A model generated the notes under the pieces. The model had not been told where the DNA came from, made no database searches, and was given only the letters and a program-made list of their open reading frames with translations. Shown one piece after another: positions 1-64,000 of a stretch of DNA of 64,000 nt. The stretch covers positions 3,386,645-3,450,644 of the forward strand of contig OU696585.1 of the NCBI GenBank assembly GCA_916048095.2, written 5' to 3'. The DNA is from Sacculina carcini. Lineage: Eukaryota > Arthropoda > Thecostraca > Sacculinidae. Each line of letters opens with the position of its first letter. Position 1 is the stretch's first letter. Made by a program: the position numbers and the translations under genes.

Positions 1-3000
1 ACACCGACGCCACCACTAAATCGAAGATGTCTGGCAAAGTTGGTGTTGACACATTGGAGCCGGTACTCGTGGTAGTCTCCACCAGCAACGAGTCGGTCTG
101 TGTGGATCTAGCTCCTGCTGGGACCGCGACCGAGGCGATGGACGCGGCCACATCATCACCACCATCATCACCAGTAACATCATCGCCATCATCTCAGCTA
201 CTTAAGCCGTGGCGATTTCTTCGTCACGGTACGCTTAGCCTTGTTTCGCGTAAGAAGTTATTGAAGAGAAAGCGCTCTGGAAAGCTACCATCACCACGAT
301 CACGACCATCATCTCCATCATCAACAGGGGCACCCTCATCACAATCACCACGACTACAATCACCGCCATCACCACCATCATCACAACCATCATCGCCCCG
401 ACTACCATCACCATCATCGCCCCGACTACCATCACCATCATCACCACTATCACCATCATATCGAACATCAACAGTATCATCATCACCACCATCATCTCCG
501 CTACTACAGCCGTGGCGATTTCTTCGTCACGGTACGCTTAGCCTTGTTTCGCGTAAGAAGTTATTGAAGAGGAAGCGCAATGGCAAGCTAGCGGCACAGA
601 CGCATCTGCACTCTGACTCAACCAACGGTAAACCCCACACCGACACCACCACTAAGTCGGGCAATGTTGGTGTTGACGCGGTGGAGCCGGCTCTCGCCGT
701 CGTCCCCACTAGCAAAGGGACGGTCAGTATGGACTTGGTTCCTGTTGGGACCGCGACCGAGGCGACAGACGCGGCCGCACACCCCATCCAATATTCACTG
801 AACGATTTTGAAATGATCCGGGTGATTGGACGCGGCGGCTATGGTAAGGTTTTGATGGTGGAGCTGCGACGAAATCGGCGCGTCTACGCCATGAAGGTGA
901 TCAAGAAGAAGCTGATCACCGACAACAAAGATATCGGTCGGGTGCAGACCGAGAAACACGTGTTTGAGACGGCGTCCAACCACCCGTTCCTGGTAGGAAT
1001 GCACTCTTGCTTCCAAAGTCCCAGTCGGCTGTTCTTCGTGAATGAGTTTGTGAGCGGCGGCGACCTCATGTTTCACATGCAGCGCTACGGCAAACTGTCC
1101 AAGAAGCAGGTCAAGTTCTACTCGGCAGAGCTCTGCCTGGCGCTCAACTTTCTGCATGGAAACGGTATCATCCACCGTGACCTCAAGTTGGAAAATGTCC
1201 TGATCGACCAAGAGGGACACATTAAGCTCAATGACTACGGCATATGCAAGGAAGGAATGCGGCCAGGTGACACAACGTCCACATTCTGCGGCACGCCCCG
1301 CTACATGGCGCCGGAGATGGTGCTTGACAAGGGTTATGGCTTCAGTGTGGACTGGTGGGCGTTGGGCGTGCTCATGTTCGAGATGCTGACTGATCGCAAT
1401 CCGTTCGAAATTGGTAATCATTCTGAAGCACCCAATGAGAATAACATCGACTATCTCTATCGAATGCTCGTCAAGACCATCCACATTCCGCGCTCTATGT
1501 CGGTGAATGCGCGACAAATCCTGAAGGGGCTTCTAAAAAACAACCCGGTGGAGCGACTGGGCTGTCATCCGGACACCGGCTTCAAAGACATCGTTGGACA
1601 TGCGTTCTTCAATAGTGTCGACTGGCAGCGTTTGGAGCAGAAGCAAGTGACGCCCCCGTACAAGCCACGCGTCAAGACCGAACTTGATCTGGCCAACTTT
1701 CCGTCCCTCATCACAGACGAGCCGGTGCGACTGACAACCGAAAACACAAGCGCCATTGAAAAAATCGACCAGAGCCAATTTGACGGTTTTGATTATGTTA
1801 GCCCGTTGCAAATATCGCTATCAATGTCATCACCCACACCATCTGCACGACCACCATCTCCATTACAATCACCATCACCACATATATCTCCGCTACAACC
1901 GTCGCCATTTCCTCGTCACCCTACGTTGAGGCCAGTGTCGCGTAACAAGTTATTGAAGGGAAAGCACGCTGGCAAACCAGTGGCGCGGAAGCATCTGCGC
2001 TGTGACCCAACCAAGGGTAAACTACACACCAACACCACCACGAAGTCGATGAAGATATCGGCCAAAGTTGGAGTTGACGCGGTGGAGCCGGCTCTCGCCG
2101 TTGTCCCTACCATCACTAAAACGGCCAGTGTGGACCCGGTTCCTGCTGGGGCCAAGGCCATTCTCCCCAGTCAGTATTCGCTGGCCGATTTTGATCTGAT
2201 CCGCGTGATTGGACGCGGCGGATTCGGCAAAGTGATGATGGTGGAATTACGACGCACTCGGCGCGTCTACGCCATGAAGGCGATCAAGAAGAAGCTGATC
2301 AAGAATGCCAAGGATAAAGGCCGAGTGCAGACCGAGACACGCGTGTTTAAGATGGTGTCCAACCACCCGTTCCTGGTGGGAATGCACTCGTGCTTCCAAA
2401 GTCCCAGTCGGCTGTTCTTCGTGATTCAGTTTGTGCGCGGCGGCGACCTCATGTTTCATATGGAGCGTCACGGCAAACTGCCGGAGGAGCACGTCAAGTT
2501 CTACTCGGCGGAGCTGTGCCTGGCGCTTTACTTTCTGCATGATAACGGCATTATCCATCGTGATCTGAAGCTGGAAAATGTGCTGATCGACCACGAGGGA
2601 CATATTAAGCTTATCGACTACGGCCTTTGCAAGGAAGGAATGCGACCAGGCAACACAACGTCCACCTTCTGCGGCACACCTCACTACATCGCTCCGGAGA
2701 TACTGCTTGGCCAGAAATATAACTTCAGTGTTGATTGGTGGTCGCTGGGCGTGCTCATGTTTGAGATGCTCACTAATCGCATTCCGTTCGAAACTGGCCA
2801 TCATTCTAAAGCACAAAATGAGAAAACAAAGAACCATCTGTATCGGATAATTATCGAGAAGACCATCCGCATTCCACCCTCTTTGTCGGCGAATGCGCGC
2901 AAAATCCTGAGAGGTCTTCTAAAAAAGAACCCGGTAGAGCGACTGGGCTGTCAAACGAACACCGGCTTCAAAGACATCGTTGAACATGAGTTCTTCAACA

Positions 3001-3935
3001 GTGTTGACTGGCAGCTTTTGGTGCGGAAGCAAGTGAAACCGCCGTATAAGCCACACGTCAAGACCGAACGTGATCTGGCCAACTTTCCGTCCCTCTTCAC
3101 AGACGAGCCGGCGCGGCTGACACCCGACAACACAAGCGCCATTGAAAAAATCGACCAGAGGCAATTTGACGGTTTTGATTATGTCAACCCGTTGCTAATA
3201 TCGCTATCACCGTCATCACCCACACCATCTGCGCGACCACCGTCTCCATTAAAACCACCATCACCACATATATCTCCGCTACAACCGTCGCCATTTCCTC
3301 GTCACCCTACGTTGAGGCCAGAGTCGCGTAACAAGCAATTGAAGAGAAAGCACACTGGCAAACCAGTGGCGCAGAAGCATCTGCGCTGTGACCCAGCCAA
3401 GGGTAAACTCCACACTAACACCACCACTAAGTCGATGAAGATATCGGCCAAAGTTGGAGTTGACGCGGTGGAGCCGGCTCTCGCCGCTGTCCCTACCATT
3501 ACTAAAACGGCCAGTGTGGACCCGGCTCCTGCTGGGGCCGCGGCCATTCTCTCCAGTCAGTATTCGCTGGCCGATTTCGATCTGATCCGCGTGATTGGAC
3601 GCGGCGGATTCGGCAAAGTGATGATGGTGGAATTACGACGCACTCGGCGCGTCTACGCCATGAAGGCGATCAAGAAGAAGCTGATCAAGCTGACCATACT
3701 GCTCCAGACGAGACATGATAGTCGTGAGCAGGCGTTCGTGCTGATCGTGAGAATTCGATGCGAGCAGCAAATCGTCCATATAGCAGAATACGCCGTCGAT
3801 ATCGCGCAGAACACCGTCCATAAAACGCTGAAACGTCTGCCCGGCGTTCCTCAAGCCAAACGGCATGCGTACATACTCGTAGAGGCCGAATGGTGTCATG
3901 ATTGCCGTTTTGGGAATATCGGCCGTGAAGCTTAG
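1..3935 (+). pseudogene. Triple-aPKC fusion gene copy 1: 5' cut by window edge, 3' truncated in kinase domain 3
   Basis: The reading frame is open from base 1, which is the second base of a codon and corresponds to base 22221 in copy 2, through to a stop at 3935. It holds the last two basic modules before the first kinase ([15 protein letters not shown] type), kinase domain 1 (about 792-1820), kinase domain 2 (about 2175-3190) and only the start of kinase domain 3. After the catalytic lysine segment [12 protein letters not shown], homology to copies 2 and 3 stops at 3689/3690, and the frame continues for about 80 codons through antisense gypsy pol before the stop. Domain 3 therefore lacks its HRD, DYG and activation loop. 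Up to 3689 the sequence is almost identical to copy 2; the two differences I noticed (near 1250 and 1798) are both silent. Domains 1 and 2 keep all catalytic residues, so a shortened two-kinase protein is possible, but I treat the copy as broken. An assembly misjoin at 3690 is an alternative. Confidence 0.85.
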
Positions 3936-5699: not shown

Positions 5700-5719
5700 G
5701 CGTGTGTCAACGACACCGG

Positions 5720-9623: not shown

Positions 9624-9760
9624 CGTGCTGTTGCGCCGGAAGCGACCCCAGCAGCGGCGACCTGCTGGGGTCGCCGCTCAGCAGCCTTTTCAGGCTGCTG
9701 GGGAGCGGCCGCCTTGGGCCGCTGGGTTGCGGCCGTCTGAGGCCGCTGGGTCGCGGACGC

Positions 9761-18224: not shown

Positions 18225-18315
18225 CAGACACACAGACACACACACAGACACACACACACACACACAGAGGATCTCTTTTATATATATAGATATATATATA
18301 TATATATATATATTC
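18225..18315. repeat. CA/CAGA and TA microsatellite
   Basis: Runs of ACAGACACACA and TATATA directly upstream of the conserved kinase-gene leader. The corresponding site before copy 3 is interrupted by the LINE at 36066-38663. Confidence 0.8.
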
Positions 18316-18727
18316 ACCGAAAACTTTGAAACAAACCTTTCTATATATGCTTAATTTTACCCGGATTATTCTAACCTCAAGTACCTATTAGTTATTTTTC
18401 ACGAGATTTCATTGGGGATATTTTTACGAAATAAATAGTTTTTTATGTATTGAACAAAAAACAGCAAAATCTGGGTTTTGTGAGTAATAGACTCACTGAA
18501 AACTGTGAAACAAACATTTATATATAATTAATTTACCGAATTATTTTAACCTCAAGTGCCGATTACCTGTTTTCCACGAGTTTTCACTGGGAATAATATT
18601 TACGAGATAGCGAGTATAGTAGTTGTGGTTGACGCAGTCATTCCTGAACTGAATTGCGGTAGTGAAGCATCGTTTTCACACACTGTCAATTTTGATCTAG
18701 CGTCGAAGGTGAATACCTGAAGACACC
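18316..18727 (+). promoter_or_regulatory. Conserved proximal upstream region of kinase copy 2
   Basis: About 410 bp directly before the start codon is nearly identical before copies 2, 3 and 4, although the DNA further out differs. Inside it two related blocks follow each other: GAAAACTTTGAAACAAAC...ACCTCAAGTACC...TTCA-TGGG and, about 175 bp later, GAAAACTGTGAAACAAAC...ACCTCAAGTGCC. This looks like a duplicated control element. No clear TATA box sits at a fixed distance. The start codon context is AGACACCATGC, with a second in-frame ATG four codons in. Promoter function is an inference from conservation and position. Confidence 0.5.
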
Positions 18728-21700
18728 ATGCAAGCAATGCACAGCAAAAGCGATATTGATGAAGCATTCATCAAACACCTAGCCTGGACCGGTGTTACCG
18801 AAGAGGCAGCAAAGTTATGTGTCCACTACAACATCTCTTCAAAGTGGAGCATGCTTTCCAACTGGAGGAAGACCATCCGCCAGTGTCCCGCGCACTATGT
18901 GCGCTATATCAAGATCTACTCGGCGAAAATGATCACCCAGAAGCCCAGCAAAGTTCTCGCCATGTGTGGCAAGCATACCACTTTGCTGAAGGATTTGGAG
19001 ATTTCGCTACGTATGTACACCAGATGGTGGCAATTAGATTTTGTACAGCAGCAACAAGGGGTCATTGTTCTGCTCGACTACATGAATATTGTACTGTCGG
19101 CCAAAGAACGCGTTGACCAAAAAGAGAAAACAGCCGTTCAAACCTGCTGTATGCAGATCTTCAAAACATCAAACACCAAAAAGACCACTCGGATGGCCAA
19201 TGCACAACAGGTGTTAAGCCTATGTGTGCTCTGCCTCAAAGCAATAGTCAGTGAGAGGCAATCACTCAGCAAAATTGTGCTGGATCGGGATAATACCCTG
19301 GTACTGGTACGTTGCGTGGACTTTATCCAGCAAGAGGCCACTGCATCGACCATTATGGGCATTTTGAAAAAGCTGGCCAAAATCAACCCGTATGTCAGCG
19401 CAACAATTCAAGAAGTTCGCTACGTGGATCTCAGCACGCGTGAGATTGGTCAGTTGAGCAAGTTAGTCACGAATTTCGATGAGCCTGGACCTCGATCACC
19501 ATACATCGATTACTCTGATATTCCTCGGGTACTAAACTGGGTTGTTTGTGAGGATATCGGAATATCTAGCCGTCAGTGTGACATACAGCCAATAAGCAGA
19601 ACAGTAATGCTCTTCAGTGAAATGTTAAAGGCATTGGACCTGATAGAAAACATATGTTCAGACAGTGTAATGAACAAACATCAGGCCAACGAAGACGTTA
19701 GGAAATCTACGAACAACGGTATTGGTAGAAAGAGCAGAAACGCAACCGATAAAGTGGTTTTTGTAAATAGTGACGTGTCACTGTCAATGTCCACTGATTT
19801 CATAATACCACCGCCATCATCACGATCACTATCATTACTACCACAACCACAACCACTACCATCACCTTCACCACTACCACCACCATCACCATCGTCGTCG
19901 ACCCTTCCATCAGCTGTTGTGTGCCGAGGAGACCCGCAGCCCTTCCTTGGACCAGCCGAGTCGACGCGCCCAGGCGACCAGCAGACCGGCCATCTCGACC
20001 GGGCGTCGCCACAGGTCCTCCAGCTGAAGACCCGTGGGCATGTTTGGGCAGCGGAACAGATGGGGAATTGTTCCACTACATATTTGACATGTCGAGGGTC
20101 CCGGATTCTCCTCGATGTCACCAGCGGGGCAGATGAAGTTCACCGGCCACGCTCCGGCACGCGAAGATCGACCGACACAAAAAATGATGCAGGGCTTCCA
20201 GATTTTGGATGCGGGAGAGATTTACATGATTTGAGCAGAGTCCCTCTGGGTATGCTGCAGTCCAACCGCGTGCAGACCGAGGACCTCCGGACTCTACCGT
20301 CACCATCACCACCACAATCACCACGACTACAATCACCATCATCACCACAATCATCATCATCATTATCATCACCACAATCATCATCACCACCACAATCATC
20401 ATCACCACCACAACCATCATCATCACCATTATCACCACAATCATCATCATCATCATCATCACCACCACAACCATCATCATCACCATTATCACCACAATCA
20501 TCAACATCACCGACATCATCTCCGCTACTTCCACCGTCGCGATTTATTCCTCACGCTACATCTAGTCTTGTTTCGCGTAATAAGTTATTGAAGAGAAAAC
20601 GCACAGGCGAGATAGTGGCGCAGACACATCTGAGCTCTGACTCAACAAATGGTGAACTTCACACCGACACCAGCACCAAGTCGATGAAGATGTCGGACAA
20701 AGTTGGTGTTGACGCGGTGGAGCCGGCACTCGTGGTCATCCCCACCAGCAACAAGACTGTCAGTGTGGATCTGGTTCCTGCCGGGACCGTAACCGAGGCG
20801 ATGGACGCGACCACACCATCGCCACCATCATCATTAGCATTATCAACATCATCTCCATCATCATATCCGCTACTTCAACCGTGGCGATGTCTTCGTCACG
20901 CTACGTTTAGTATTGTTTCGCGGAACAAGTTATTGAACAGTAAGCGTACTGAAGAGCTATCATCATCACCGACACAACCATCATCCCCCAGACTGCCATC
21001 ACCTCCATCACCATCACCAGTATCATCACCATCAACAGTATCATCATCACCACCATCATCTCCGCTACGTCAACCGTACCGATTTAGTCGTCACGCTACG
21101 TTTAGTCTTGTTTCGCGTAACCAGTTATTGAAGAGAAACCGCACAGGCCAGCTACTGGCGCCGACGCATCTGCGCTCTGACTCAATCAATGGTGCACTTA
21201 ACACCGACACCATCACTAAGTCTATAAAGATGTCCGGCAAAGGTAGTGTTGACGCGGTGGAGCCGGCACTCGTGGTCGTCTCCACCAGCAACGAGACGGT
21301 CAGTGTGGATCTAGCTCCTGCTGGGACCGCTAACGAGACGATGGACGCGGCCACATCATCACCACCATCATCACCACTATCACCATCACCAGTATCATCA
21401 TCATCTCGAACATCAACAGTATCATCATCACCACCATCATCACCAGTAACATCATCGCCATCATCTCCGCTACTTAAGCCGTGGCGATTTCTTCGTCACG
21501 GTACGCTTAGCCTTGTTTCGCGTGAGAAGCTATTGAAGAGAAAGCGCTCTGGAAAGCTACCATCACCACGATCACGACCATCATCTCCATCATCAACAGG
21601 GGCACCCTCATCACAATCACCACGACTACCATCACCGCCATCACCACCATCATCACAACCATCATCGCCCCGACTACCATCACCATCATCACCACTATCA

Positions 21701-24700
21701 CCATCATCTCGAACATCAACAGTATCATCATCACCACCATCATCTCCGCTACTACAACCGTGGCGATTTCTTCGTCACGGTACGCTTAGCCTTGTTTCGC
21801 GTAAGAAGTTATTGAAGAGAAGGAACAATGGCGAGCTAGTGGCGCAGACGCATATGACCTCTGACTCAATCAGCGGTAAAATCCACACCGACACCACCAC
21901 TGAGTCGATGAAGATGTCAGGCAAAGCTGGTGTTGACGCGGTGGAGACGGCAGCCGTGGTCGTCTCCACCATCAAAGAGACGGTCAGTGTGGACCAGGAT
22001 CCTGCTGGGACAGCGACGGAGGCGATTAACGCGGTCACACTATCGCCACCATCATCACCACTACCATCATCGCCATCATCTCCGCTACTTAAACCGTGGC
22101 AATTTCTTCGTCACGGTACGCTTAGCCTTGTTTCGCGCAAGAAGTTATTGAAGCGAAAGCGCAATGGCAAGCTAGTGGCGCAGACGCATCTTCGCTCCAA
22201 CTCAATCAACGGTCAAATCCACACCGACGCCACCACTAAATCGAAGATGTCTGGCAAAGTTGGTGTTGACACATTGGAGCCGGTACTCGTGGTAGTCTCC
22301 ACCAGCAACGAGTCGGTCTGTGTGGATCTAGCTCCTGCTGGGACCGCGACCGAGGCGATGGACGCGGCCACATCATCACCACCATCATCACCAGTAACAT
22401 CATCGCCATCATCTCAGCTACTTAAGCCGTGGCGATTTCTTCGTCACGGTACGCTTAGCCTTGTTTCGCGTAAGAAGTTATTGAAGAGAAAGCGCTCTGG
22501 AAAGCTACCATCACCACGATCACGACCATCATCTCCATCATCAACAGGGGCACCCTCATCACAATCACCACGACTACAATCACCGCCATCACCACCATCA
22601 TCACAACCATCATCGCCCCGACTACCATCACCATCATCGCCCCGACTACCATCACCATCATCACCACTATCACCATCATATCGAACATCAACAGTATCAT
22701 CATCACCACCATCATCTCCGCTACTACAGCCGTGGCGATTTCTTCGTCACGGTACGCTTAGCCTTGTTTCGCGTAAGAAGTTATTGAAGAGGAAGCGCAA
22801 TGGCAAGCTAGCGGCACAGACGCATCTGCACTCTGACTCAACCAACGGTAAACCCCACACCGACACCACCACTAAGTCGGGCAATGTTGGTGTTGACGCG
22901 GTGGAGCCGGCTCTCGCCGTCGTCCCCACTAGCAAAGGGACGGTCAGTATGGACTTGGTTCCTGTTGGGACCGCGACCGAGGCGACAGACGCGGCCGCAC
23001 ACCCCATCCAATATTCACTGAACGATTTTGAAATGATCCGGGTGATTGGACGCGGCGGCTATGGTAAGGTTTTGATGGTGGAGCTGCGACGAAATCGGCG
23101 CGTCTACGCCATGAAGGTGATCAAGAAGAAGCTGATCACCGACAACAAAGATATCGGTCGGGTGCAGACCGAGAAACACGTGTTTGAGACGGCGTCCAAC
23201 CACCCGTTCCTGGTAGGAATGCACTCTTGCTTCCAAAGTCCCAGTCGGCTGTTCTTCGTGAATGAGTTTGTGAGCGGCGGCGACCTCATGTTTCACATGC
23301 AGCGCTACGGCAAACTGTCCAAGAAGCAGGTCAAGTTCTACTCGGCAGAGCTCTGCCTGGCGCTCAACTTTCTGCATGGAAACGGTATCATCCACCGTGA
23401 CCTCAAGTTGGAAAATGTCCTGATCGACCAAGAGGGACACATTAAGCTCAATGACTACGGTATATGCAAGGAAGGAATGCGGCCAGGTGACACAACGTCC
23501 ACATTCTGCGGCACGCCCCGCTACATGGCGCCGGAGATGGTGCTTGACAAGGGTTATGGCTTCAGTGTGGACTGGTGGGCGTTGGGCGTGCTCATGTTCG
23601 AGATGCTGACTGATCGCAATCCGTTCGAAATTGGTAATCATTCTGAAGCACCCAATGAGAATAACATCGACTATCTCTATCGAATGCTCGTCAAGACCAT
23701 CCACATTCCGCGCTCTATGTCGGTGAATGCGCGACAAATCCTGAAGGGGCTTCTAAAAAACAACCCGGTGGAGCGACTGGGCTGTCATCCGGACACCGGC
23801 TTCAAAGACATCGTTGGACATGCGTTCTTCAATAGTGTCGACTGGCAGCGTTTGGAGCAGAAGCAAGTGACGCCCCCGTACAAGCCACGCGTCAAGACCG
23901 AACTTGATCTGGCCAACTTTCCGTCCCTCATCACAGACGAGCCGGTGCGACTGACAACCGAAAACACAAGCGCCATTGAAAAAATCGACCAGAGCCAATT
24001 TGACGGTTTTGATTATGTAAGCCCGTTGCAAATATCGCTATCAATGTCATCACCCACACCATCTGCACGACCACCATCTCCATTACAATCACCATCACCA
24101 CATATATCTCCGCTACAACCGTCGCCATTTCCTCGTCACCCTACGTTGAGGCCAGTGTCGCGTAACAAGTTATTGAAGGGAAAGCACGCTGGCAAACCAG
24201 TGGCGCGGAAGCATCTGCGCTGTGACCCAACCAAGGGTAAACTACACACCAACACCACCACGAAGTCGATGAAGATATCGGCCAAAGTTGGAGTTGACGC
24301 GGTGGAGCCGGCTCTCGCCGTTGTCCCTACCATCACTAAAACGGCCAGTGTGGACCCGGTTCCTGCTGGGGCCAAGGCCATTCTCCCCAGTCAGTATTCG
24401 CTGGCCGATTTTGATCTGATCCGCGTGATTGGACGCGGCGGATTCGGCAAAGTGATGATGGTGGAATTACGACGCACTCGGCGCGTCTACGCCATGAAGG
24501 CGATCAAGAAGAAGCTGATCAAGAATGCCAAGGATAAAGGCCGAGTGCAGACCGAGACACGCGTGTTTAAGATGGTGTCCAACCACCCGTTCCTGGTGGG
24601 AATGCACTCGTGCTTCCAAAGTCCCAGTCGGCTGTTCTTCGTGATTCAGTTTGTGCGCGGCGGCGACCTCATGTTTCATATGGAGCGTCACGGCAAACTG

Positions 24701-26809
24701 CCGGAGGAGCACGTCAAGTTCTACTCGGCGGAGCTGTGCCTGGCGCTTTACTTTCTGCATGATAACGGCATTATCCATCGTGATCTGAAGCTGGAAAATG
24801 TGCTGATCGACCACGAGGGACATATTAAGCTTATCGACTACGGCCTTTGCAAGGAAGGAATGCGACCAGGCAACACAACGTCCACCTTCTGCGGCACACC
24901 TCACTACATCGCTCCGGAGATACTGCTTGGCCAGAAATATAACTTCAGTGTTGATTGGTGGTCGCTGGGCGTGCTCATGTTTGAGATGCTCACTAATCGC
25001 ATTCCGTTCGAAACTGGCCATCATTCTAAAGCACAAAATGAGAAAACAAAGAACCATCTGTATCGGATAATTATCGAGAAGACCATCCGCATTCCACCCT
25101 CTTTGTCGGCGAATGCGCGCAAAATCCTGAGAGGTCTTCTAAAAAAGAACCCGGTAGAGCGACTGGGCTGTCAAACGAACACCGGCTTCAAAGACATCGT
25201 TGAACATGAGTTCTTCAACAGTGTTGACTGGCAGCTTTTGGTGCGGAAGCAAGTGAAACCGCCGTATAAGCCACACGTCAAGACCGAACGTGATCTGGCC
25301 AACTTTCCGTCCCTCTTCACAGACGAGCCGGCGCGGCTGACACCCGACAACACAAGCGCCATTGAAAAAATCGACCAGAGGCAATTTGACGGTTTTGATT
25401 ATGTCAACCCGTTGCTAATATCGCTATCACCGTCATCACCCACACCATCTGCGCGACCACCGTCTCCATTAAAACCACCATCACCACATATATCTCCGCT
25501 ACAACCGTCGCCATTTCCTCGTCACCCTACGTTGAGGCCAGAGTCGCGTAACAAGCAATTGAAGAGAAAGCACACTGGCAAACCAGTGGCGCAGAAGCAT
25601 CTGCGCTGTGACCCAGCCAAGGGTAAACTCCACACTAACACCACCACTAAGTCGATGAAGATATCGGCCAAAGTTGGAGTTGACGCGGTGGAGCCGGCTC
25701 TCGCCGCTGTCCCTACCATTACTAAAACGGCCAGTGTGGACCCGGCTCCTGCTGGGGCCGCGGCCATTCTCTCCAGTCAGTATTCGCTGGCCGATTTCGA
25801 TCTGATCCGCGTGATTGGACGCGGCGGATTCGGCAAAGTGATGATGGTGGAATTACGACGCACTCGGCGCGTCTACGCCATGAAGGCGATCAAGAAGAAG
25901 CTGATCAAGAATGCCAAGGATATCGGCCGCGTGAAGACCGAGACACACGTGTTTAAGATGGCGTTCAACCACCCGTTCCTGGTGGGACTGCACTCGTGCT
26001 TCCAAAGTCCCAGTCAGCTGTTCTTCGTGATTCAGTTTGTGCGCGGCGGCGACCTCAGGTTTCATATAAAGCGTAACGGCAAACTGCCGGAGGAGCACGT
26101 CAAGTTCTACTCGGCGGAGCTCTGCCTGGCCCTGAACTTTCTGCACGAGTACGGCATTATCCATCGTGATCTGAAGCCGGAAAATGTGTTGATCGACCAC
26201 GACGGACATATCAAGCTTATCGACTACGGCATTTGCAAGAAAGGAATGCGACCAGGTGACAGAACGTCCACCTTCTGCGGCACGCCCCACTACATCGCGC
26301 CGGAGATGTTGCTTGGCCAGAAATATAACTTCAGTGTTGATTGGTGGTCGCTGGGCGTGCTAATGTTTGAGATGCTCACTAATCGCAGTCCGTTCGAAAA
26401 TGGCCATCATTCTAAAGCACCCAATGAGAAAACCAAGAACCATCTGTATCGGATAATTCTCGAGAAGACCATCCGCATTCCGCCCTCTTTGTCGGCGAAT
26501 GCGCGCAAAATCCTGAGACGTCTTCTAAAAAAGAACCCGGTAGAGCGACTGGGCTGTCATCCGGACACCGGCTTCATAGACATCGTTGGGCATGAGTTCT
26601 TCAACAGTGTTGACTGGCAGCTTTTGGTGAGGAAGCAAGTGAAGCCGCCGTACAAGCCACGCGTCAAGAGCGAACGTGATCTGGCCAACTTTCCGTCCCT
26701 CTTCACCGACCAGCAGGTGCGGCTCACACCCGAAAAGAAATGCTGCATCGAACAAATCGACCAGAGACAGTTTGACGGATTCGATTATGTGAACCCGTTG
26801 ATGATGTAG
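18728..26809 (+). CDS. Giant fusion protein, copy 2: formin GBD/FH3-like N-terminus, 10 basic modules, three aPKC-type kinases (2693 aa)
   Basis: A single uninterrupted frame. Residues about 1-320 resemble the GTPase-binding/FH3 region of FMNL-type formins: SKW at 38-40, [10 protein letters not shown] at 86-95, GVIVLLDYM at 111-119, CVLCLKAIV at 166-174. A Ser/Pro-rich region (about 350-1425) contains eight basic modules; modules 9 and 10 lie before kinases 2 and 3. The kinases start at Y1429, Y1890 and Y2352. Each has a glycine loop (GRGGYGKV or GRGGFGKV), the VAIK lysine (K1463, K1924, K2386), the HRD aspartate (D1558, D2019, D2481), DYG (D1576, D2037, D2499) and a PDK1-type threonine in TSTFCGTP (T1592, T2053, T2515). 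DYG, the EGMRPG activation loop and the [10 protein letters not shown] tail, with Asp at the hydrophobic-motif phosphosite, are aPKC hallmarks. In kinase 1 the turn motif reads LTTEN, lacking the usual +1 proline. PB1 and C1 are absent. All three domains look catalytically complete. Expression and processing are not visible. Confidence 0.85.
19913..20290 (-). mobile_element. Antisense LINE ORF1 fragment with 2A-like motif, inside copy 2 coding sequence
   Basis: Between two Ser/Pro trinucleotide tracts the coding frame crosses about 125 codons of non-repetitive sequence. On the opposite strand this reads a 2A-like GDIEENPGP (20122-20096), followed by CQIC and more cysteines. 2A motifs near the N-terminus of ORF1 are known from non-LTR retrotransposons of invertebrates. 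The sense kinase frame runs straight through ([11 protein letters not shown] over the 2A codons) and stays open. The fragment is therefore exonised in reverse, so the kinase protein itself contains no 2A motif. Confidence 0.75.
20300..22990 (+). repeat. Coding tandem repeats: basic modules in Ser/Pro tracts, copy 2
   Basis: Eight modules of the form [23 protein letters not shown] lie between residue about 602 and 1360. Each is followed by a semi-conserved linker ([41 protein letters not shown]), or by nothing, before the next (TCA/CCA)n Ser-Pro tract. The DNA tracts are CATCAC/CATCAT microsatellites in frame. Each module has Thr at +3 after an Arg (R-H-G-T-L) and a Ser followed by RKK, matching basic AGC-kinase site logic; KKLLKRKR could also be a nuclear localisation signal. 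Confidence 0.85.
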
Positions 26810-27570
26810 CTCGAGCACCGTGTGTTACCACCAACCAGCATACGCTGTTCTCTTGTCGCCGCGGTTGTCTGTGTGTGAGTGGGTTGCTTGCTTGTAAGGA
26901 TATTACCCCCATCATTATCCATATTATCTTCGCCATCATCCAAATAATAATGACCAGAACATTCCAGTTACATCACCATCTAGGTCAAGACCACCGCCAC
27001 GCCAACATCAACATGCACCCACAATGTATACGAAGCATATACAACAACATGGACAACACAATTGTCCACCAGTGTATTATATAAAGCTTGTACACACATT
27101 GGGTGCAGTTCAATACATTCAAACAAATATTCAACGTGTTTTCATTATTTAACCTTATCAACCGAATACGTAGAATTGGCTGGTCGAGGTATAAGCCAGT
27201 CATATATTACTGGAAAATTGAATTATCGAAAGCAAACATTCCTACAACATTCAAGACGTTTATCATTTCTATCATCAGTGGTTGCCGCGTGCGATAAAAT
27301 GAGCGATACGGCAGTGGTTCTTAACCTGTGCGAAATTTGCCACTGGTGGGGAATGGAAGAGTTGCCATGTTGAAATCCAAATGTCGGACAGAAGAACAAA
27401 TGCGTGTTTTTATCAATTCAAATAAGCTTATTTTTGTTTCTAATGACCTCTTGTCATTCAATTTAATGTAACAACTGAGTTTATTGAATTTGTGGCGCCT
27501 GCGCAAATGTAGGGCAACAACATTTGCCCATACACCACAAACACACCCTACCAGCGCTTTAGCGGTACGC
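26810..27570 (+). other. 3' flank of kinase copy 2
   Basis: About 760 bp of ordinary non-coding sequence, nearly identical to that after copy 3 (47819-48579). It starts CTCGAGCACCGTGTGTTACC. No AATAAA is seen within the first 600 bp. The 3' end of the transcript cannot be placed. Confidence 0.6.
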
Positions 27571-27739
27571 GTCCCGGAGGTGTATATCCCCTGCACACAG
27601 ACACACACCACGGACAAACACCAGCCAGCCCGCACCAGCCCGGTACAGTGTCGCGTCTCGGAGGTGTATGTCCCCTGCACACAGACACACACCACGGATA
27701 AACACCAGCCAGCCCGCACCAGCCCGGTACAGTGTCGCG
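27571..27739. repeat. 84-bp tandem repeat (two units, third at 28260-28350)
   Basis: The unit GTC(T/C)CGGAGGTGTAT...CCCGGTACAGTGTCGC occurs at 27571 and 27655, and a third diverged unit begins at 28260 beyond the TIR element. The array was split by that element. Confidence 0.85.
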
Positions 27740-28259
27740 GGAGACTACCCACTTAGCGACAATGGCATTTTGATACAGACTTCACGGCCGCTCTCAACCT
27801 CTACATAATTCGACCCGTGCCATGGGCGCGCGAAGACCATACCGGAGCTAAAAAAAGTCCCTTTGAGACAATCCGCTAGAGGGCTCTGAAACTGGCCGTT
27901 TGAGACAAAAAGCGAGAGTGCGGTAAATGCGCTAAGCAGAGCCTGTGATAATGAGCCGCTCCTCGCGATTAACGTAGGTTAGGTTTGGTTAGGTTAGGTT
28001 ATGTGGGCTGCTTAGGTTTGGTTAGGTTAGGTTAGGTTGGTTAGGTTAGGTTAGGTTAGGTGACAAGACCAACATGCTCATATTTATTGACAATTTATAC
28101 AGACAGCGCCCTAAGTAGGATTTTTTCTCGAATTTCAAATTTTAGCTCCAGCACTAGTTAAACTTGTGTGCGCCTATGCTACCTACCGGACTAGGACGGC
28201 AAAGAGAGAGTATGAGAATTAGGCCTCAAATGACACTGCCGCTAACAGGTCTATATCCA
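27740..28259. mobile_element. TIR element, copy 2 (8-bp target duplication, TTAGG tracts)
   Basis: It begins GGAGACTACCC like the copy at 15032 and shares internal blocks with it (CACGGCCGCTCTCAACCTC, GCCATGGGCGCG, TTTTAGCTCCAGCACTAGT). The right end mirrors the left (TTAGCG-CA-TG-CATTT). GTGTCGCG flanks it on both sides (27732-27739, 28260-28267). Imperfect TTAGG runs lie at about 27975-28062. No coding frame is seen. Confidence 0.8.
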
Positions 28260-29653
28260 GTGTCGCGTCTCGGAGGTGTATGTCCCCTGCACACAGACAT
28301 ACACCACGTACAAACATCAGTGAGTGCGCACCAGCCCTCTTCAGTGTCAGGGCCAACATCTGGTTCGCATCCGCCTGACCACATCCTCACCCAGGGATGC
28401 AGCAGCCATCGAAGGCAATCCATCGCTCTCTCCAGAGCGCTCACGCGCTGCTGGCTTGCAGGAGCATCGCGCCACTGGGCGCGGCTTCAAGCGTTTGCGG
28501 ACGTTTCCGCCAGGCGCCGCCACGGGCACTGGCTGCGGAATCTGGCGTGTTTGTATGTGTGTGTGTATTTGTGTGTTTCACTGGTGTAGCGAGGCGGAAC
28601 AAAAGGACGAAACACACAGATGGATATATATAGAGAAGTTATATTAGTAACAACAATAAGTCAAAAATAATAATAAAAATAATTATTAATTTTTTTAGCT
28701 GACTATCACGTTAGCCCATCCACACAGCCTGAAACTTGCTTGAAAGCACAAGTTCCGCACCATTACCCCATTTACCCCATCATTACTCCCTTTGTCCCAA
28801 TAGTACACTTTTACCACAGAAACATCCTTTTCTCCAACATTACTCACTTTTACCCCATCGTTACCCCTTTACCCCTTACAACTCGTGATTCTACAACTCT
28901 ACTCAATTATACAACTCATGATTTATATACAGGACTTTATTAGTAGTGTTGAGTGTTAAATAAGTGTCAGTTTATATTCTTACCTGGATGTAATCCTCAA
29001 TAAAATATTTCACTATACTGTTGAATTTCTTATTATATACGATTGGGATAAAAATATTCACAATCATATGTACACTGTGTATTGAATACGATAAACGCTC
29101 TACAAATTTTTACTATAAAAATTAAAAAGCCTCCAGAAATAATACACAACACGACTGAAACAACGAAAATACAACAAAAAATTATTCCACAGGCAGGGAA
29201 AATTCAAGAGTTAATCTTAGCAAAAAACCGTCATATACTTGAAGACACAAAATGAAACATTTTCACAAACCACAAATTCGCCACCAACGCATACCGGCCT
29301 CTTAATAAACAAACGACCAGGCAGCACGCGTACAATAACACTAACACACTTGCACGCTACGTATCAAAATACATCCAACCTCAATTGTCCATATATGAAC
29401 ATACACTCACATTTGAACCCCACACACACACACATACAAACAGCATTTAATGCCAATTCCACAAGCACACACACACACACACACACACAAACAAACAACA
29501 GTGTAGCAGAAAATGACGTAGCATACATATGCGTGCGTGTGTGTTAGTGGGGTCAGTGGAAATATGACGTAACCATGACAATACACACATAATATTAATT
29601 ATCAATTACGTATAAGATACACATACTGACATAACACACACACCCATATATAT

Positions 29654-29746
<93 letters not shown>

Positions 29747-30006
29747 AAATGAACAAGTCCAGGGGCTTTCAAACATACAAAACACTCGGCTACGCACATA
29801 GACTTGATAATTTCATTGAGAGCAGGTATTCTATTGAATTATGTACACCTCTGCTCTGCTAATGATAATAGAAACAAGAAATACGCTGGCCGTGGAAAAA
29901 ATACCCCATACAAACTAACACTAACACACACACATACCTACACACACACTAACACACAAACAAAGGCAAATATACACACACACACTAACACATAACCACT
30001 CAAATA

Positions 30007-30044
<38 letters not shown>

Positions 30045-30162
30045 CACACACATACATATACACAGACAGTACTGTGTGAAAAAAGTTTCGCCGGTTCTAC
30101 GATTCGAACTCGCCAACTCACTTTACACGCAGACACACACGGCCAGGCAATTATAACACAGT
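28260..30162. other. Non-coding spacer with microsatellites
   Basis: It holds the third 84-bp unit, unique sequence, a TTACCCC-rich stretch (about 28760-28890), CA runs (29420-29490, 29920-30060) and a long TA run (about 29645-29742). It is shared with 49274-51173 after copy 3, differing mainly in microsatellite lengths. No gene is seen. Confidence 0.7.
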
Positions 30163-30332
30163 CTACATGACATTGACAAAATACTCGTGCTGAGCTGTTG
30201 AAGACGCCCCCGCCCCTGCCGCCGCTGAAGTGACAGACGGACCGTCGGAGCCCGCAATAGCTGCGTGATTCACCGGCTGTCCGAATAGATGGCGCTGCGA
30301 GCCAGCCGTCGATGAAGCGCCGCTGCTGCCAC
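30163..30332 (-). pseudogene. Duplicated last exon of dishevelled (orphan copy behind kinase copy 2)
   Basis: It matches the dishevelled terminal exon at 51174-51343. Minus strand: acceptor TATTATAG, then coding from GTGGCAGCAGCGG to the C-terminal EYFVNVM and TAG. The one coding difference I noticed is silent (Leu CTA versus TTA). The matching upstream exons (DEP, proline-rich) are not found between here and the next gene copy, and similarity to the 51-kb locus ends about 15 bp into the intron. It is therefore an exon carried along in the segmental duplication and probably not used. Confidence 0.8.
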
Positions 30333-30349
30333 CTATAATATACACACAC

Positions 30350-38679: not shown

Positions 38680-38728
<49 letters not shown>
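38664..38728. repeat. (TA)n microsatellite upstream of copy 3
   Basis: The right half of the microsatellite split by the LINE; it corresponds to 18283-18315. Confidence 0.75.
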
Positions 38729-39139: not shown

Positions 39140-42100
39140 ATGCAAGCAATGCACAGCAAAAGCGATATTGATGAAGCATTCATCAAACACCTAGCCTGGA
39201 CCGGTGTTACCGAAGAGGCAGCAAAGTTATGTGTCCACTACAACATCTCTTCAAAGTGGAGCATGCTTTCCAACTGGAGGAAGACCATCCGCCAGTGTCC
39301 CGCGTACTATGTGCGCTGTATCAAGATCTACTCGGCGAAAATGATCACCCAGAAGCCCAGCAAAGTTCTCGCCATGTGTGGCAAGCATACCACTTTGCTG
39401 AAGGATTTGGAGATTTCGCTACGTACGTACACCAGATGGTGGCAATTAGAGTTTGTACAGCAGCAACAAGGGGTCATTGTTCTGCTCGACTACATGAATA
39501 TTGTACTGTCCGCCAAAGAACGCGTTGACCAAAAAGAGAAAACAGCCGTTCAAACCTGCTGTATGCAGATCTTCAAAACATCAAACACCAAAAAGACCAC
39601 TCGGATGGCCAATGCACAACAGGTGTTAAACATATGTGTGCTCTGCCTCAAAGCAATAGTCAGTGAGAGGCAATCACTCAGCAAAATTGTGCTGGATCGG
39701 GATAATACCCTGGTACTGGTACGTTGCGTGGACTTTATCCAGCAAGAGGCCACTGCATCGACCATTATGGGCATTTTGAAAAAACTGGCCAAAATCAACC
39801 CGTATGTCAGCGCAACCATTCAAGAGGTTCGCTACATGGATCTCAGCACGCGTGAGATTGGTCAGTTAAGCAAGTTAGTCACGAATTTCGACGAGCCTGG
39901 ACCTCGATCACCATACATCGATTACTCTGATATTCCTCGGGTACTCAACTGGGTTGTTTGCGAGGATATCGGAATATCTAGCCGTCAGTGTGACATACAG
40001 CCAATAAGCAGAACAGTAATGCTCTTCAGTGAAATGTTAAAGGCATTGGACCTGATAGAAAACATATGTTCAGACAGTGTAATGAACAAACATCAAGCCA
40101 ACGAAGACGTTAGGAAATCTACGAACAACGGTATTTGTAGAAAGAGAAGAAACGCAACCGATAAAGTGGTTTTTGTAAATAGTGACGTATCACTGTCAAT
40201 GTCCACTGATTTCATAATACCACCGCCATCATCACGATCACTATCATTACTACCACAACCACAACCACTACCATCACCTTCACCACTACCACCACCATCA
40301 CCATCGTCGTCGACCCTCCCATCAGCTGTTGTGTGCCGAGGAGACCCGCAGCCCTTCCTCGGACCAGCCGAGTCGACGCGCCCAGGCGACCAGCAGACCG
40401 GCCATCTCGACCGGGCGTCGCCACAGGTCTTCCAGCTGAAGACCCGTGGGCATGTTTGGGCAGCGGAACAGATGCGGAATCGTTCCACTACATATTTGAC
40501 ATGTCGAGGGTCCCGGATTCTCCTCGATGTCACCGGCGAGGCAGATGAAGTTCACCGGCCACGCTCCGGCACGCGAAGATCGACCGACACAAAAAATGAT
40601 GCAGGGCTTCCAGATTTTGGATGCGGGAGAGATTTACATGATTTGAGCAGAGTCCCTCTGGGTATGCTGCAGTCCAACCGCGTGCAGACCGAGGACCTCC
40701 GGACTCTACCGTCTCCATCACCACCACAATCACCACGACTACCATCACCATCATCACCACAATCATCATCATCATTATCATCACCACAATCATCATCACC
40801 ACCACAATCATCATCATCACCATTATCACCACAATCATCATCATCATCATCATCATCACCACCACAACCATCATCATCACCATTATCACCACAATGGTCA
40901 ACATCACCGCCATCATCTCCGCTACTTCCACCGTCGCGATTTATTCCTCACGCTACATCTAGTCTTGTTTCGCGTAATAAGTTATTGAAGAGAAAACGCA
41001 CAGGCGAGATAGTGGCGCAGACACATCTGAGCTCTGACTCAACAAATGGTGAGCTTCACACCGACACCAACACCAAGTCGATTAAGATGTCGGACAAAGT
41101 TGGTGTTGAGGCGGTGGAGCCGGCACTCGTGGTCATCCCCACCAGCAACAAGACTGTCAGTGTGGATCTGGTTCCTGCCGGGACCGCAACCGAGGCGATG
41201 GACGCGACCACACCATCGCCACCATCATCAGCAGCATCATCAACATCATCTCCATCATCATATCCGCTACTTCAACCGTGGCGATGTCTTCGTCACGCTA
41301 CGTTTAGTATTGTTTCGCGGAACAAGTTATTGAACAGTAAGCGTACTGAAGAGCTATCATCATCACCGACACCACCATCATCCCCCCGACTGCCATCACC
41401 TCCATCACCATCACCAGTATCATCACCATCAACAGTATCATCATCACCACCATCATCTCCGCTACGTCAACCGTACCGATTTAGTCGTCACGCTACGTTT
41501 AGTCTTGTTTCGCGTCACCAGTTATTGAAGAGAAAACGCACAGGCCAGCTACTGGCGCCGACGCATCTGCGCTCTGACTCAATCAATGGTGCACTTCACA
41601 CCGACACCATCACTAAGTCTATAAAGATGTCCGGCAAAGGTAGTGTTGACGCGGTGGAGCCGGCACTCGTGGTCGTCTCCACCAGCAACGAGACGGTCAG
41701 TGTGGATCTAGCTCCTGCTGGGACCGCTAACGAGACGATGGACGCGGCCACATCATCACCACCATCATCACCACTATCACCATCACCAGTATCATCATCA
41801 TCTCGAACATCAACAGTATCATCATCACCACCATCATCACCGCTACTACAACCGTGGCGATTTCTTCGTCACGGTACATTTAGCCTTGTTTCGCGTAGGA
41901 AGTTATTGAAGAGAAAGAGCAATGGAGATCTAAGGGCGCAGACGCATATGAGCTCTGACTCAATCAGCGGTAAAATCCACACCGACACCACCACTAAGTC
42001 GACGAAGATGTCAGGAAAAGTTGGTGTTGACGCGGTGGAGTCGGCAGCCGTGGTCGTCTCCACCATCAAAGAGACAGTCAGTGTGGACCAGGTTCCTGCT

Positions 42101-45100
42101 GGGACAGCGACAGAGGCGATGATCGCGGTCACACTATCGCCACCATCATCACCACTATCATCATCGCCATCATCTCCGCTACTTAAACCGTGGCAATTTC
42201 TTCGTCACGGTACGCTTAGCCTTGTTTCGCACAAGAAGTTATTGAAGCGAAAGCGCAATGGCAAGCTAGTGGCGCAGAAGCATCTGCGCTCCGACTCAAT
42301 CAACGGTCAACTCCACACCGACGCCACCACTAAATCGAAGATGTCTGGAAAAGTTAGTGTTGCCACATTGGAGCCGGTACTCGTGGTAGTCTCCACCAGC
42401 AACGAGTCGGTCTGTGTTGATCTAGCTCCTGCTGGGACCGCAACCGAGGCGATGGACGCGGCCACATCATCACCACCATCATCACCAGTAACATCATCGC
42501 CATCATCTCCGCTACTTAAGCCGTGGCGATTTCTTCGTCACGGTACGCTTAGCCTTGTTTCGCGTAAGAAGTTATTGAAGAGAAAGCGCTCTGGAAAGCT
42601 GCCATCACCACGATCACGACCATCATCTCCATCATCAACAGGGGCACCCTCATCACAATCACCACGACTACCATCACCGCCATCACCACCATCATCACAA
42701 CCATCATCACCACTATCACCATCATCTCGAACATCAACAGTATCATCATCACCACCATCATCTCCGCTACTACAACCGTGGCGATTTCTTCGTCACGGTA
42801 CGCTTAGCCTTGTTTCGCGTAAGAAGTTATTGAAGAGAAGGAGCAATGGCGAGCTAGTGGCGCAGACGCATATGACCTCTGACTCAATCAGCGGTAAAAT
42901 CCACACCGACACCACCACTGAGTCGATGAAGGCAAAGTTGGCAAAGTTGTCAGGCAAAGTTGGTGTTGACGCGTTGGAGTCGGCAGCCGTGGTCGTCTCC
43001 ACCATCAAAGAGACGGTCAGTGTGGACCAGGTTCCTGCTGGGACAGCGACGGAGGCGATGAACGCGGTCACACTATCGCCACCATCATCACCACTACCAT
43101 CATCGCCATCATCTCCGCTACTTAAACCGTGGCAATTTCTTCGTCACGGTACGCTTAGCCTTGTTTCGCGCAAGAAGTTATTGAAGCGAAAGCGCAATGG
43201 CAAGCTAGTGGCGCAGACGCATCTTCGCTCCAACTCAATCAACGGTCAAATCCACACCGACGCCACCACTAAATCGAAGATGACTGGCAAAGTTGGTGTT
43301 GACACATTGGAGCCGGTACTCGTGGTAGTCTCCACCAGCAACGAGTCGGTCTGTGTGGATCTAGCTCCTGCTGGGACCGCGACCGAGGCGATGGACGCGG
43401 CCACATCATCACCACCATCATCACCAGTAACATCATCGCCATCATCTCCGCTACTTAAGCCGTGGCGATTTCTTCGTCACGGTACGCTTAGCCTTGTTTC
43501 GCGTAAGAAGTTATTGAAGAGAAAGCGCTCTGGAAAGCTACCATCACCACGATCACGACCATCATCTCCATCATCAACAGGGGCACCCTCATCACAATCA
43601 CCACGACTACAATCACCGCCATCACCACCATCATCACAACCATCATCGCCCCGACTACCATCACCATCATCACAACTATCACCATCATCTCGAACATCAA
43701 CAATATCATCATCACCACCATCATCTCCGCTACTACAGCCGTGGCGATTTCTTCGTCACGGTACGCTTAGCCTTGTTTCGCGTAAGAAGTTATTGAAGAG
43801 GAAGCGCAATGGCAAGCTAGCGGCACAGACGCATCTGCACTCTGACTCAACCAACGGTAAACCCCACACCGACACCACCACTAAGTCGGGCAATGTTGGT
43901 GTTGACGCGGTGGAGCCGGCTCTCGCGGTCGTCCCCACTAGCAAAGGGACGGTCAGTATGGACTTGGTTCCTGTTGGGACCGCGACCGAGGCGACAGACG
44001 CGGCCGCACACCCCATCCAATATTCACTGACCGATTTTGAAATGATCCGGGTGATTGGACGCGGCGGCTATGGTAAGGTTTTGATGGTGGAGCTGCGACG
44101 AAATCGGCGCGTCTACGCCATGAAGGTGATCAAGAAGAAGCTGATCACCGACAACAAAGATATCGGTCGGGTGCAGACCGAGAAACACGTGTTTGAGACG
44201 GCGTCCAACCACCCGTTCCTGGTAGGAATGCACTCGTGCTTCCAAAGTCCCAGTCGGCTGTTCTTCGTGAATGAGTTTGTGAGCGGCGGCGACCTCATGT
44301 TTCACATGCAGCGCTACGGCAAACTGTCCGAGAAGCAGGTCAAGTTCTACTCGGCAGAGCTCTGCCTGGCGCTCAACTTTCTGCATGGAAACGGTATCAT
44401 CCACCGTGACCTCAAGTTGGAAAATGTCCTGATCGACCAAGAGGGACACATTAAGCTCAATGACTACGGCATATGCAAGGAAGGAATGCGGCCAGGTGAC
44501 ACAACGTCCACATTCTGCGGCACGCCCCGCTACATGGCGCCGGAGATGGTGCTTGACGAGGGTTATGGCTTCAGTGTGGACTGGTGGGCGTTGGGCGTGC
44601 TCATGTTCGAGATGCTGACTGATCGCAATCCGTTCGAAATTGGTAATCATTCTGAAGCACCCAATGAGAATAACATCGACTATCTCTATCGAATGCTCAT
44701 CAATACCATCCACGTTCCGCACTCTATGTCGGTGAATGCGCGACAGATCCTGAAGGGGCTTCTGAAAAACAACCCGGTGGAGCGACTGGGCTGTCATCCG
44801 GACACCGGCTTCAAAGACATCGTTGGACATGCGTTCTTCAATAGTGTCGACTGGCAGCGTTTGGAGCAGAAGCAAGTGACGCCCCCGTACAAGCCAAGCG
44901 TCAAGACCGAACTTGATCTGGCCAACTTTCCGTCCCTCATCACAGACGAGCCGGTGCGACTGACACCCGAAAACACAAGCGCCATTGAAAAAATCGACCA
45001 GAGCCAATTTGACGGTTTTGATTATGTCAACCCGTTGCTAATATCGCTATCACCGTCATCACCCACACCATCTGCACGACCACCGTCTCCATTACAATCA

Positions 45101-62861: not shown

Positions 62862-64000
62862 ATGCAAGCAATGCACAGCAAAAGCGATATTGATGAAGCA
62901 TTCATCAAACACCTAGCCTGGACCGGTGTTACCGAAGAGGCAGCAAAGTTATGTGTCCACTACAACATCTCTTCAAAGTGGAGCATGCTTTCCAACTGGA
63001 GGAAGACCATCCGCCAGTGTCCCGCGTACTATGCGCGCTATATCAAGATCTACTCGGCGAAAATGATCACCCAGAAGCCAAGCAAAGCTCTCGCCATGTG
63101 TGGCAAGCATACCACTTTGCTGAAGGATTTGGAGATTTCGCTACGTACGTACACCAGATGGTGGCAATTAGAGTTTGTACAGCAGCAACAAGGGGTCATT
63201 GTTCTGCTCGACTACATGAATATTGTACTGTCGGCCAAAGAACGCGTTGACCAAAAAGAGAAAACAGCCGTTAAAACCTGCTGTATGCAGATCTTCAAAA
63301 CATCCAACACCAAAAAGACCACTCGGATGGCCAATACACAACAGGTGTTAAACCTATGTGTGCTCTGCCTCAAAGCAATAGTCAGTGAGAGGCAATCACT
63401 CAGCAAAATTGTGCTGGATAGGGATAATACCCTGGTACTGGTACGTTGCGTGGACTTTATCCAGCAAGAGCCCACTGCATCGACCATTATGGGCATTTTG
63501 AAAAAACTGGCCAAAATCAACCAGTATGTCAGCGCAACCATTCAAGAGGTTCGCTACATGGATCTCAGCACGCGTGAGATCGGTCAGTTAAGCAAGTTAG
63601 TCACGAATTTCGATGAGCCTGGACCTCGATCACCATACATCGATTACTCTGATATTCCTCGGGTACTCAACTGGGTTGTTTGTGAGGATATCGGAATATC
63701 TAGCCGTCAGTGTGACATACAGCCAATAAGCAGAACAGTAATGCTCTTCAGTGAAATGTTAAAGGCATTGGATCTGATAGAAAACATATGTTCAGACAGT
63801 GTAATGAACAAACATCAAGCCAACGAAGACGTTAGGAAATCTACGAGCAACGACATCGGTAGAAAGAGCAGAAGTGCAACCGATAAAGTGGTTTTTGTAA
63901 AAAGTGACGTATCACTGTCAATGTCCACTGATTCCATAATATCACCGCCATCATCACGATCACTATCATTACTACCACAACCACAACCACTACCATCACC
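62862..64000 (+). CDS. Giant fusion protein, copy 4: N-terminal part, continues beyond the window
   Basis: 379 complete codons are open to the window edge. They cover the whole formin GBD/FH3-like region ([37 protein letters not shown]) and the start of the Ser/Pro region. Differences from copies 2 and 3 include YYARYIKIY, PSKALAMC, AVKTCC, MANTQQVLNL, QQEPTAST and KINQYVSA, so this is the most diverged N-terminus in the window. No stop or frameshift is seen. Whether it keeps the antisense LINE fragment and the kinases cannot be told. Confidence 0.85.
   Translation, partial: MQAMHSKSDIDEAFIKHLAWTGVTEEAAKLCVHYNISSKWSMLSNWRKTIRQCPAYYARYIKIYSAKMITQKPSKALAMCGKHTTLLKDLEISLRTYTRWWQLEFVQQQQGVIVLLDYMNIVLSAKERVDQKEKTAVKTCCMQIFKTSNTKKTTRMANTQQVLNLCVLCLKAIVSERQSLSKIVLDRDNTLVLVRCVDFIQQEPTASTIMGILKKLAKINQYVSATIQEVRYMDLSTREIGQLSKLVTNFDEPGPRSPYIDYSDIPRVLNWVVCEDIGISSRQCDIQPISRTVMLFSEMLKALDLIENICSDSVMNKHQANEDVRKSTSNDIGRKSRSATDKVVFVKSDVSLSMSTDSIISPPSSRSLSLLPQPQPLPS

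Follow-up and report, generated by a model that had tools for sequence, protein, structure and literature searches.

An intronless Sacculina carcini gene family that joins an FMNL-type formin N-terminus to one or more aPKC kinase domains

We analysed a 64,000-nucleotide stretch of the Sacculina carcini genome (the window; assembly GCA_916048095.2, contig OU696585.1, forward-strand positions 3,386,645 to 3,450,644), in which a gene at 18728..26809 on the plus strand, here called copy A, places the GBD/FH3 region of an FMNL-type formin ahead of three kinase domains of atypical protein kinase C (aPKC). Our preferred interpretation, which the comparisons set out below make reasonably probable, is that copy A belongs to a lineage-specific family of intronless FMNL-GBD/FH3-aPKC chimeras whose kinases would be positioned by a Rho-family GTPase without Par6. 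The layout of the genes, the FMNL and aPKC identity of their parts, the descent of the kinases from one source, the number of copies, the constraint on the coding regions and the loss of both the PB1 domain and the pseudosubstrate can be regarded as established at the level of sequence.

An earlier note on this DNA, made from its letters alone, had described a single frame of 2693 codons with a formin-type N-terminus and three aPKC catalytic domains, and each of these elements withstood closer analysis. The 2693-codon frame is uninterrupted, with a chance probability of about 3e-51 under a simple base-composition model, and a second gene on the plus strand of the window, copy B (39140..47818, 2892 codons), repeats its layout. 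Pfam lists three Pkinase and three Pkinase_C stretches in copy A, corresponding to kinase domains with their C-tails at 23009..24028, 24392..25414 and 25778..26800, all three with the catalytic residues present. Human PKC iota matches kinase 1 at 512 bits, as against 331 bits for the next PKC, and the kinases of the window are 60-63% identical to PKC iota. All eight window kinases retain the catalytic Lys, the HRD Asp, DYG and APE, and all eight carry FDGFDYV, in which an acidic residue replaces the phosphorylated hydrophobic motif. The resemblance to PKC iota/zeta extends over the kinase, the C-tail with its acidic hydrophobic motif, the activation-loop and turn-motif Thr and the hinge between C1 and kinase. 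The kinase motifs quoted in the earlier note are present, with small differences: kinase 3 has KGMRPG, and the end of kinase 1 also differs.

The N-terminal region (18731..19492, plus strand) is recognised as an FMNL-type GBD/FH3 by both single-sequence and profile searches, and Pfam places Drf_GBD, below its cut-off, over residues 5-215 (18740-19372, plus strand). Against the PDB, residues 1-351 of copy A alone match FMNL2 (1.9e-8) and FMNL1 (2.5e-7), and a family profile made from 24 of the 35 GBDs in hand (11 were dropped) matches FMNL2 at 2.8e-25, FMNL1 at 3.3e-25, INF2 at 1.5e-4 and Diaphanous at 0.04-0.27. The same identity was also obtained from two independent family members, and in copy B Pfam finds Drf_GBD at 25.9 bits (E 8.5e-6). 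The lack of a formin match, which the earlier note had named as grounds for rejecting its reading, was not observed. Neither PB1 nor C1 is listed by Pfam for copies A and B, in keeping with the earlier note, although alignment to the animal's own aPKC reveals a degenerate C1 tail, stripped of its Cys and His residues, in the linker of copy A. Pfam likewise gave no FH2 domain and no HR1 repeats in the two copies, and a search of Rfam gave no match.

Between these two halves lies a Ser/Pro-rich linker (19778..23008, plus strand; Ser 22%, Pro 14%), distinguished by its composition, its tandem repeats and its similarity to the aPKC hinge. The hinge of the animal's own aPKC matches the copy A protein at seven places with E values of 2.3e-16 to 2.7e-25, and we therefore read the linker as a multiplied aPKC hinge. 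Three of the units precede the kinases on the plus strand (22763..23005, E 1.5e-20, before kinase 1; 24164..24379, E 3.1e-21, before kinase 2; 25550..25765, E 5.1e-20, before kinase 3), and four have no kinase behind them (20579-20821, 21119-21352, 21791-22054 and 22127-22369, all plus strand, blastp E 2.3e-16 to 2.7e-25). A 12-residue stretch of the linker repeats aligns with the end of C1, and the part ahead of it, which holds an F-x-R motif, has no confident alignment to the animal's own aPKC. The linker of a related protein (L026) contains a stranded kinase tail, which shows that kinases have also been lost.

The earlier note had spoken of one gene, and this proved too narrow, as the layout of copy A recurs across the genome with one to four kinases per frame and is accompanied by genes with other C-termini. 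In the 264 Mb and 43 contigs searched, PF06371 (Drf_GBD) gave 135 matches, spread over 25 contigs. Frames of at least 500 aa hold 112 of these, and at least four of the 135 are exons of ordinary intron-bearing formins (L011 and L013). Of 511 candidates from a search with kinase 1, 119 were scored as matches, all at 2e-149 or better and one of them the animal's own aPKC. A kinase and a GBD were assigned to one frame when they agreed in strand, phase and span and their frame lengths differed by no more than 20 aa. By this rule 88 of the 119 kinases lie in an open frame that also holds a listed GBD, giving 46 frames with one (18 frames), two (15), three (12) or four (1) listed kinases. These counts are lower bounds, because copy A is itself missing from the 135 GBD matches and because members on contigs C4, C25, C26, C11, C32 and C3 carry kinases outside the 119.

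Reading 34 fetched stretches uncovered further C-termini behind the common GBD/FH3 N-terminus. Pfam identifies a C48 peptidase in L028 and L038 (SENP1 at 7.8e-8 for L028), and L040 and L042 resemble these two and group with them in the GBD tree. These fusions to a Ulp1/SENP-like peptidase occupy intronless frames of 631-759 aa on C18, C22, C9, C6 and C24, and C18, C22 and C9 hold several more GBD frames of 631 aa that are probably of the same type. The C-terminal region of L043:543-3383 weakly matches PI-PLC (E 0.0063, with no Pfam match), an assignment that PI-PLC motifs support. L009 has two GBDs in a row by Pfam and then a long Ser/Pro-rich tail with no enzyme domain, a layout also seen in its sister loci on C9 at 7.48-7.68 Mb; in L036, L037 and L049 nothing besides the GBD was recognised. 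Finally, L045:189-2789 is an intronless frame with a GBD, a proline-rich FH1 and an FH2 domain by Pfam, the FH2 matching FMNL3 at 3.5e-21 and DAAM1 at 2e-20; it is possibly a retrocopied formin and a candidate for the starting point of the family. Taken together, these sister genes suggest that the GBD/FH3 region serves as a general address module in this animal.

The kinases can be traced to the animal's own aPKC. Genome-wide, PB1 (PF00564) occurs in two places, on C8 and on C26, and not in the fusion family. The C8 match belongs to the animal's own aPKC, whose gene blocks, taken from tblastn and hence with approximate splice sites, comprise a first part with PB1 and a pseudosubstrate (SIYRRGARRWRKL) and one long exon holding C1, hinge and kinase. 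Homology of the fusions to this protein starts at the end of C1, where Cys and His have been lost, and the pseudosubstrate is absent. The phylogeny against metazoan aPKC that the earlier note had proposed as a check, made here with 44 kinases (copy-0 kinases, described below, and P0021 left out), places 31 of 31 fused kinases in one clade (support 100/99) whose sister is the animal's own aPKC; P0005 (source 'lgn') follows, and then the stalked barnacle Pollicipes, the nearest named aPKC from outside. Within the clade the number of kinases increased twice independently, once in the C20/C24/C31 group and once in the C2/C15/C35 group. In the GBD tree, from which L044, L048 and the copy starting at 62862 were left out, the kinase fusions form one weakly supported group and the other C-termini fall in separate groups. 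Diaphanous or DAAM was considered as the source of the GBD and rejected; neither the family GBD nor L045 gave a tblastn match to L013 (Diaphanous-like) or L011 (DAAM-like), the two intron-bearing formin loci compared.

It is plausible that the last exon of the animal's own aPKC, which supplies the C1 tail, hinge, kinase and C-tail, became attached to an FMNL-type GBD/FH3 in what was apparently a single event, that further copies of hinge and kinase next arose within the gene, and that the gene itself then multiplied in tandem arrays and across chromosomes. In this order of events an L045-like FMNL retrocopy would have come first, its FH1-FH2 would have been swapped for the aPKC exon, and internal multiplication would have preceded the spread. 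A 5' block of about 75-230 bases is common to most member pairs on different chromosomes (about 460 for the nearest relatives), which suggests that a promoter or 5' untranslated region travelled with the genes. The 5' flanks of members on many contigs show a conserved block with a repeated CAAGTGCC..ATTAGT..CACGAGTTTT motif, possibly a common promoter. A TTAGG array, as in arthropods, stands at one of seven contig ends examined.

The family also bears the marks of coding constraint. By class of synonymous divergence (dS), median ratios of non-synonymous to synonymous change (dN/dS) lie at 0.25-0.40 between kinases and at 0.32-0.54 between GBDs, and at about 0.3-0.4 among diverged copies, with single-pair maxima of 0.89 for kinases and 1.06 for GBDs. 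These values come from 526 kinase pairs (of 528) and 398 GBD pairs (of 595), the others being shorter than 150 codons or saturated. Between copies A and B the ratio is 0.23 for the GBD and 0.56, 0.18 and 0.28 for kinases 1, 2 and 3. Across 33 kinases of the family the catalytic Lys is retained in 32 and the HRD Asp in all, with DYG in 28 and DYH in five. Both this residue check and the dN/dS analysis dropped kinases with fewer than 300 matched query positions (the split kinases of L020, L021 and L046, pieces of L019 and L047, and kinase 3 of copy 0) as well as the overlapping or sister loci L001-L008. All five DYH kinases occur in members on C15, C35, C2 and C19, which suggests that they act there as partner pseudokinases. 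L017, L018, L024 and L025 each have at least one DYH kinase beside intact ones in the same protein and may be pseudokinase-kinase tandems, and L020, L021 and L046 are single kinases in which an insertion within the domain splits the match in two.

How such proteins would work can be outlined from their parts. In ordinary animals Cdc42 reaches aPKC via Par6 and the PB1 domain. In the model that we prefer, GTP-bound Cdc42 or a relative in the Rho family would dock on the GBD/FH3 region, and this docking would place active aPKC kinases at membranes, release them there, or both, bypassing PB1 and Par6. The linker may contribute as well. Eight F-x-R-x-x-T-(L/F) sites resembling aPKC substrates lie on the plus strand of copy A (21083..25534, with starts at 21083, 21488, 21767, 22103, 22436, 22739, 24128 and 25514). 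In 1000 shufflings of the linkers such sites averaged 0.04, but the excess says little alone because the sites are copies of one another. Such FLRHGTL or FPRHPTL repeats number eight in copy A, ten in copy B, five in L027 and three in L026. According to PMC4998004, aPKC substrates show F-x-R anchoring, the peptide FKRQGSVRRR is a substrate and aPKC switches off basic membrane-binding sites; the F-x-R repeats adjoin basic stretches like such sites. They would be autophosphorylation or membrane-release sites for the neighbouring kinases. More tentatively, and with a confidence that falls somewhat short of even, we propose a hub-and-spoke arrangement in which the retrocopied GBD/FH3 would be a GTPase-addressed chassis with an exchangeable catalytic half (one to four aPKC kinases, a SUMO-protease-like or PI-PLC-like domain, or nothing), giving the animal a private Cdc42-type branch to aPKC that dispenses with Par6 and carries self-phosphorylating F-x-R membrane switches.

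Several observations weigh against our preferred interpretation. The Drf_GBD score of copy A (22.1 bits, E 1.2e-4) lies below the curated cut-off of 30.1, and we accept the match as real because of the FMNL matches in the PDB. PMC4432619 describes K73, E111, H222 and R261 of FMNL2 as contacts of Cdc42 and glycine-2 as myristoylated. Once FMNL2 numbering is shifted by two to fit the PDB chain, a shift verified by residue identity, copy A keeps two of these four contacts (K73 as R51, E111 as E91) and has lost the other two (H222 to S164, R261 to A204), its frame begins with MQAM and so lacks the N-terminal Gly, and many paralogues retain the contact-site His equivalent to H222. Structure predictions reached a mean predicted local distance difference test (pLDDT) of only 33.1 for the GBD and 31.0 for a second prediction, from alignments of window sequences alone (3 and 8 rows). 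F-x-R sites are missing from L015 and L024, two of the six proteins scanned, and in both copy A and copy B the 1.5 kb that follow the stop contain neither AATAAA nor ATTAAA. The GBD tree gives a single origin of the kinase fusions weak support (82/53). Some copies are broken, with stops inside several family frames and an interruption in copy 0. Lastly, the first kb of the 3' flank is 99.1% similar between copies A and B and the coding domains 98.2-99.6%; since the flank is as similar as the domains, this comparison gives no sign of coding constraint, and we rejected it as an uninformative test.

The loss of two of the four mapped contacts bears most directly on the strongest alternative, namely that the genes are functional while the GBD/FH3 region no longer reads a GTPase and acts as a scaffold, dimeriser or localisation module, with kinases that are constitutive or regulated by the hinge repeats alone. 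The GBD/FH3 of FMNL proteins is an all-helical repeat scaffolding, according to PMC4432619, and the existence of members with a GBD alone, or with two GBDs and no enzyme, would fit such a role. Nevertheless, the GBD segment of residues 8-123 is the best-conserved part relative to FMNL2, and purifying selection acts on GBD and kinases with similar strength. We regard this explanation as possible but unlikely.

The high copy number on 25 of 43 contigs, the retroelements inside the array and the repeat-rich organism raise the question of whether a mobile or viral element carries the family, which would then be selfish or junk sequence and not a set of animal genes in service. We disfavour this and consider it very improbable, given that the kinases descend from the animal's own aPKC and that the long frames are under constraint. 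No common terminal repeats were seen, and members on separate chromosomes share homology for no more than a few hundred bases beyond the frame, although no search for full-length element boundaries was made. Among the window frames scanned by Pfam there was no virus hallmark, and a viral collection gave three pattern matches and no relative. A viral or nimavirus-like origin, raised by the long intronless frames, was accordingly rejected, the kinases nesting with the animal's own aPKC.

It is similarly hard to credit a role for the proteins beyond the cells of the animal itself, for example on the host of a parasitic barnacle. The lineage stands next to barnacles in the aPKC tree, and PMC9582164 reports kinase domains in the two most expanded gene families of the parasitic barnacle Sacculina carcini. 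However, the frames open directly with the GBD, with no obvious signal peptide by eye, and the GBD-FH3, SENP-like and aPKC parts are all cytosolic. Least credible of all is a misreading in which the N-terminus belongs to one gene and the kinases to others, or the copies have decayed. Despite the stops in some copies, two copies of diverged length are stop-free over 2693 and 2892 codons, the domain order is the same in at least 46 frames on many contigs, and dN/dS is mostly well below 1.

The surroundings of copies A and B show how the family is arranged locally. A unit at 18279..30346 on the plus strand is duplicated at 38691-51357 (match of about 97%), and its 5' end also matches 62411-64000, where the GBD/FH3 start of a further plus-strand copy (62862..64000) runs off the window. 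At 3..3689 on the plus strand is the 3' part of another copy, copy 0, which shares 99.9% identity with 22221-25909. A retroelement breaks this copy off inside kinase 3, and its 5' portion falls to the left of the window. Since nine frames with listed kinases lie at 3.261-3.457 Mb of the contig, the window belongs to a tandem array whose units measure about 20-30 kb. The retroelement that interrupts copy 0 occupies 3690-10922 on the minus strand and encodes a gag-like DUF7041, an aspartyl protease, reverse transcriptase/RNase H and a zinc knuckle. Satellite-like repeats of about 340 bp lie upstream of copies A and B (16153-17584 and 33982-35411), and minisatellites were found at 52979-54645 (14-bp unit, about 124 copies) and 54960-56277 (16-bp unit, about 82 copies).

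Compared with the proteins from which they appear to derive, the fusions are substantially rebuilt. Relative to aPKC they lack PB1 and the pseudosubstrate, retain C1 as a degenerate tail, have gained a GBD/FH3 in front and in many members hold two to four kinases per molecule. They share the GBD/FH3 N-terminus of FMNL1-3; the window gene has kinases in place of FH1/FH2, in addition to the missing glycine and the two changed contacts, while the sister gene L045 keeps an FH2 nearest to that of FMNL3. PKN, ROCK and PAK also have a GTPase-binding N-terminus ahead of an AGC or other Ser/Thr kinase, built from HR1, RBD or CRIB modules, and the fusions would work on the same plan; we know of no kinase of this type with a formin GBD/FH3 or with several kinase domains in a row. 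This architecture appeared in none of the open-access literature searched for such fusions and expansions. A protein search with the GBD region gave none of 1180 candidates at E 1e-3 and none of 1084 at 0.01, a result that excludes only fairly close relatives because ordinary FMNL formins, surely in the database, were also missed. A protein search with the kinase gave 3697 proteins at 1e-60 of 7985 scored candidates, and precomputed domains showed no Drf_GBD in 120 listed kinase matches (candidates of up to 1339 aa). We describe a set of known domains, in an arrangement for which no precedent was found, on an unusual scale.

The Sacculina carcini draft of PMC9582164 is similar in genome size, at 298.35 Mb. 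The fusion genes resemble the expanded kinase families of that paper in being a lineage-specific expansion of kinase-domain genes, and the fusion family could account for that expansion, whose architecture is left unexplained in the main text, where formin has no occurrence. If the proteins work as they look, they would represent a new way of steering cell-polarity signalling. A natural fusion that possibly bypasses Par6 and PB1, kept in dozens of copies, would, if this is true, open an old question to experiment, namely why the Par6/PB1 step is needed. Such a fusion would also illustrate the speed at which exon capture and internal multiplication can rebuild a core polarity kinase.

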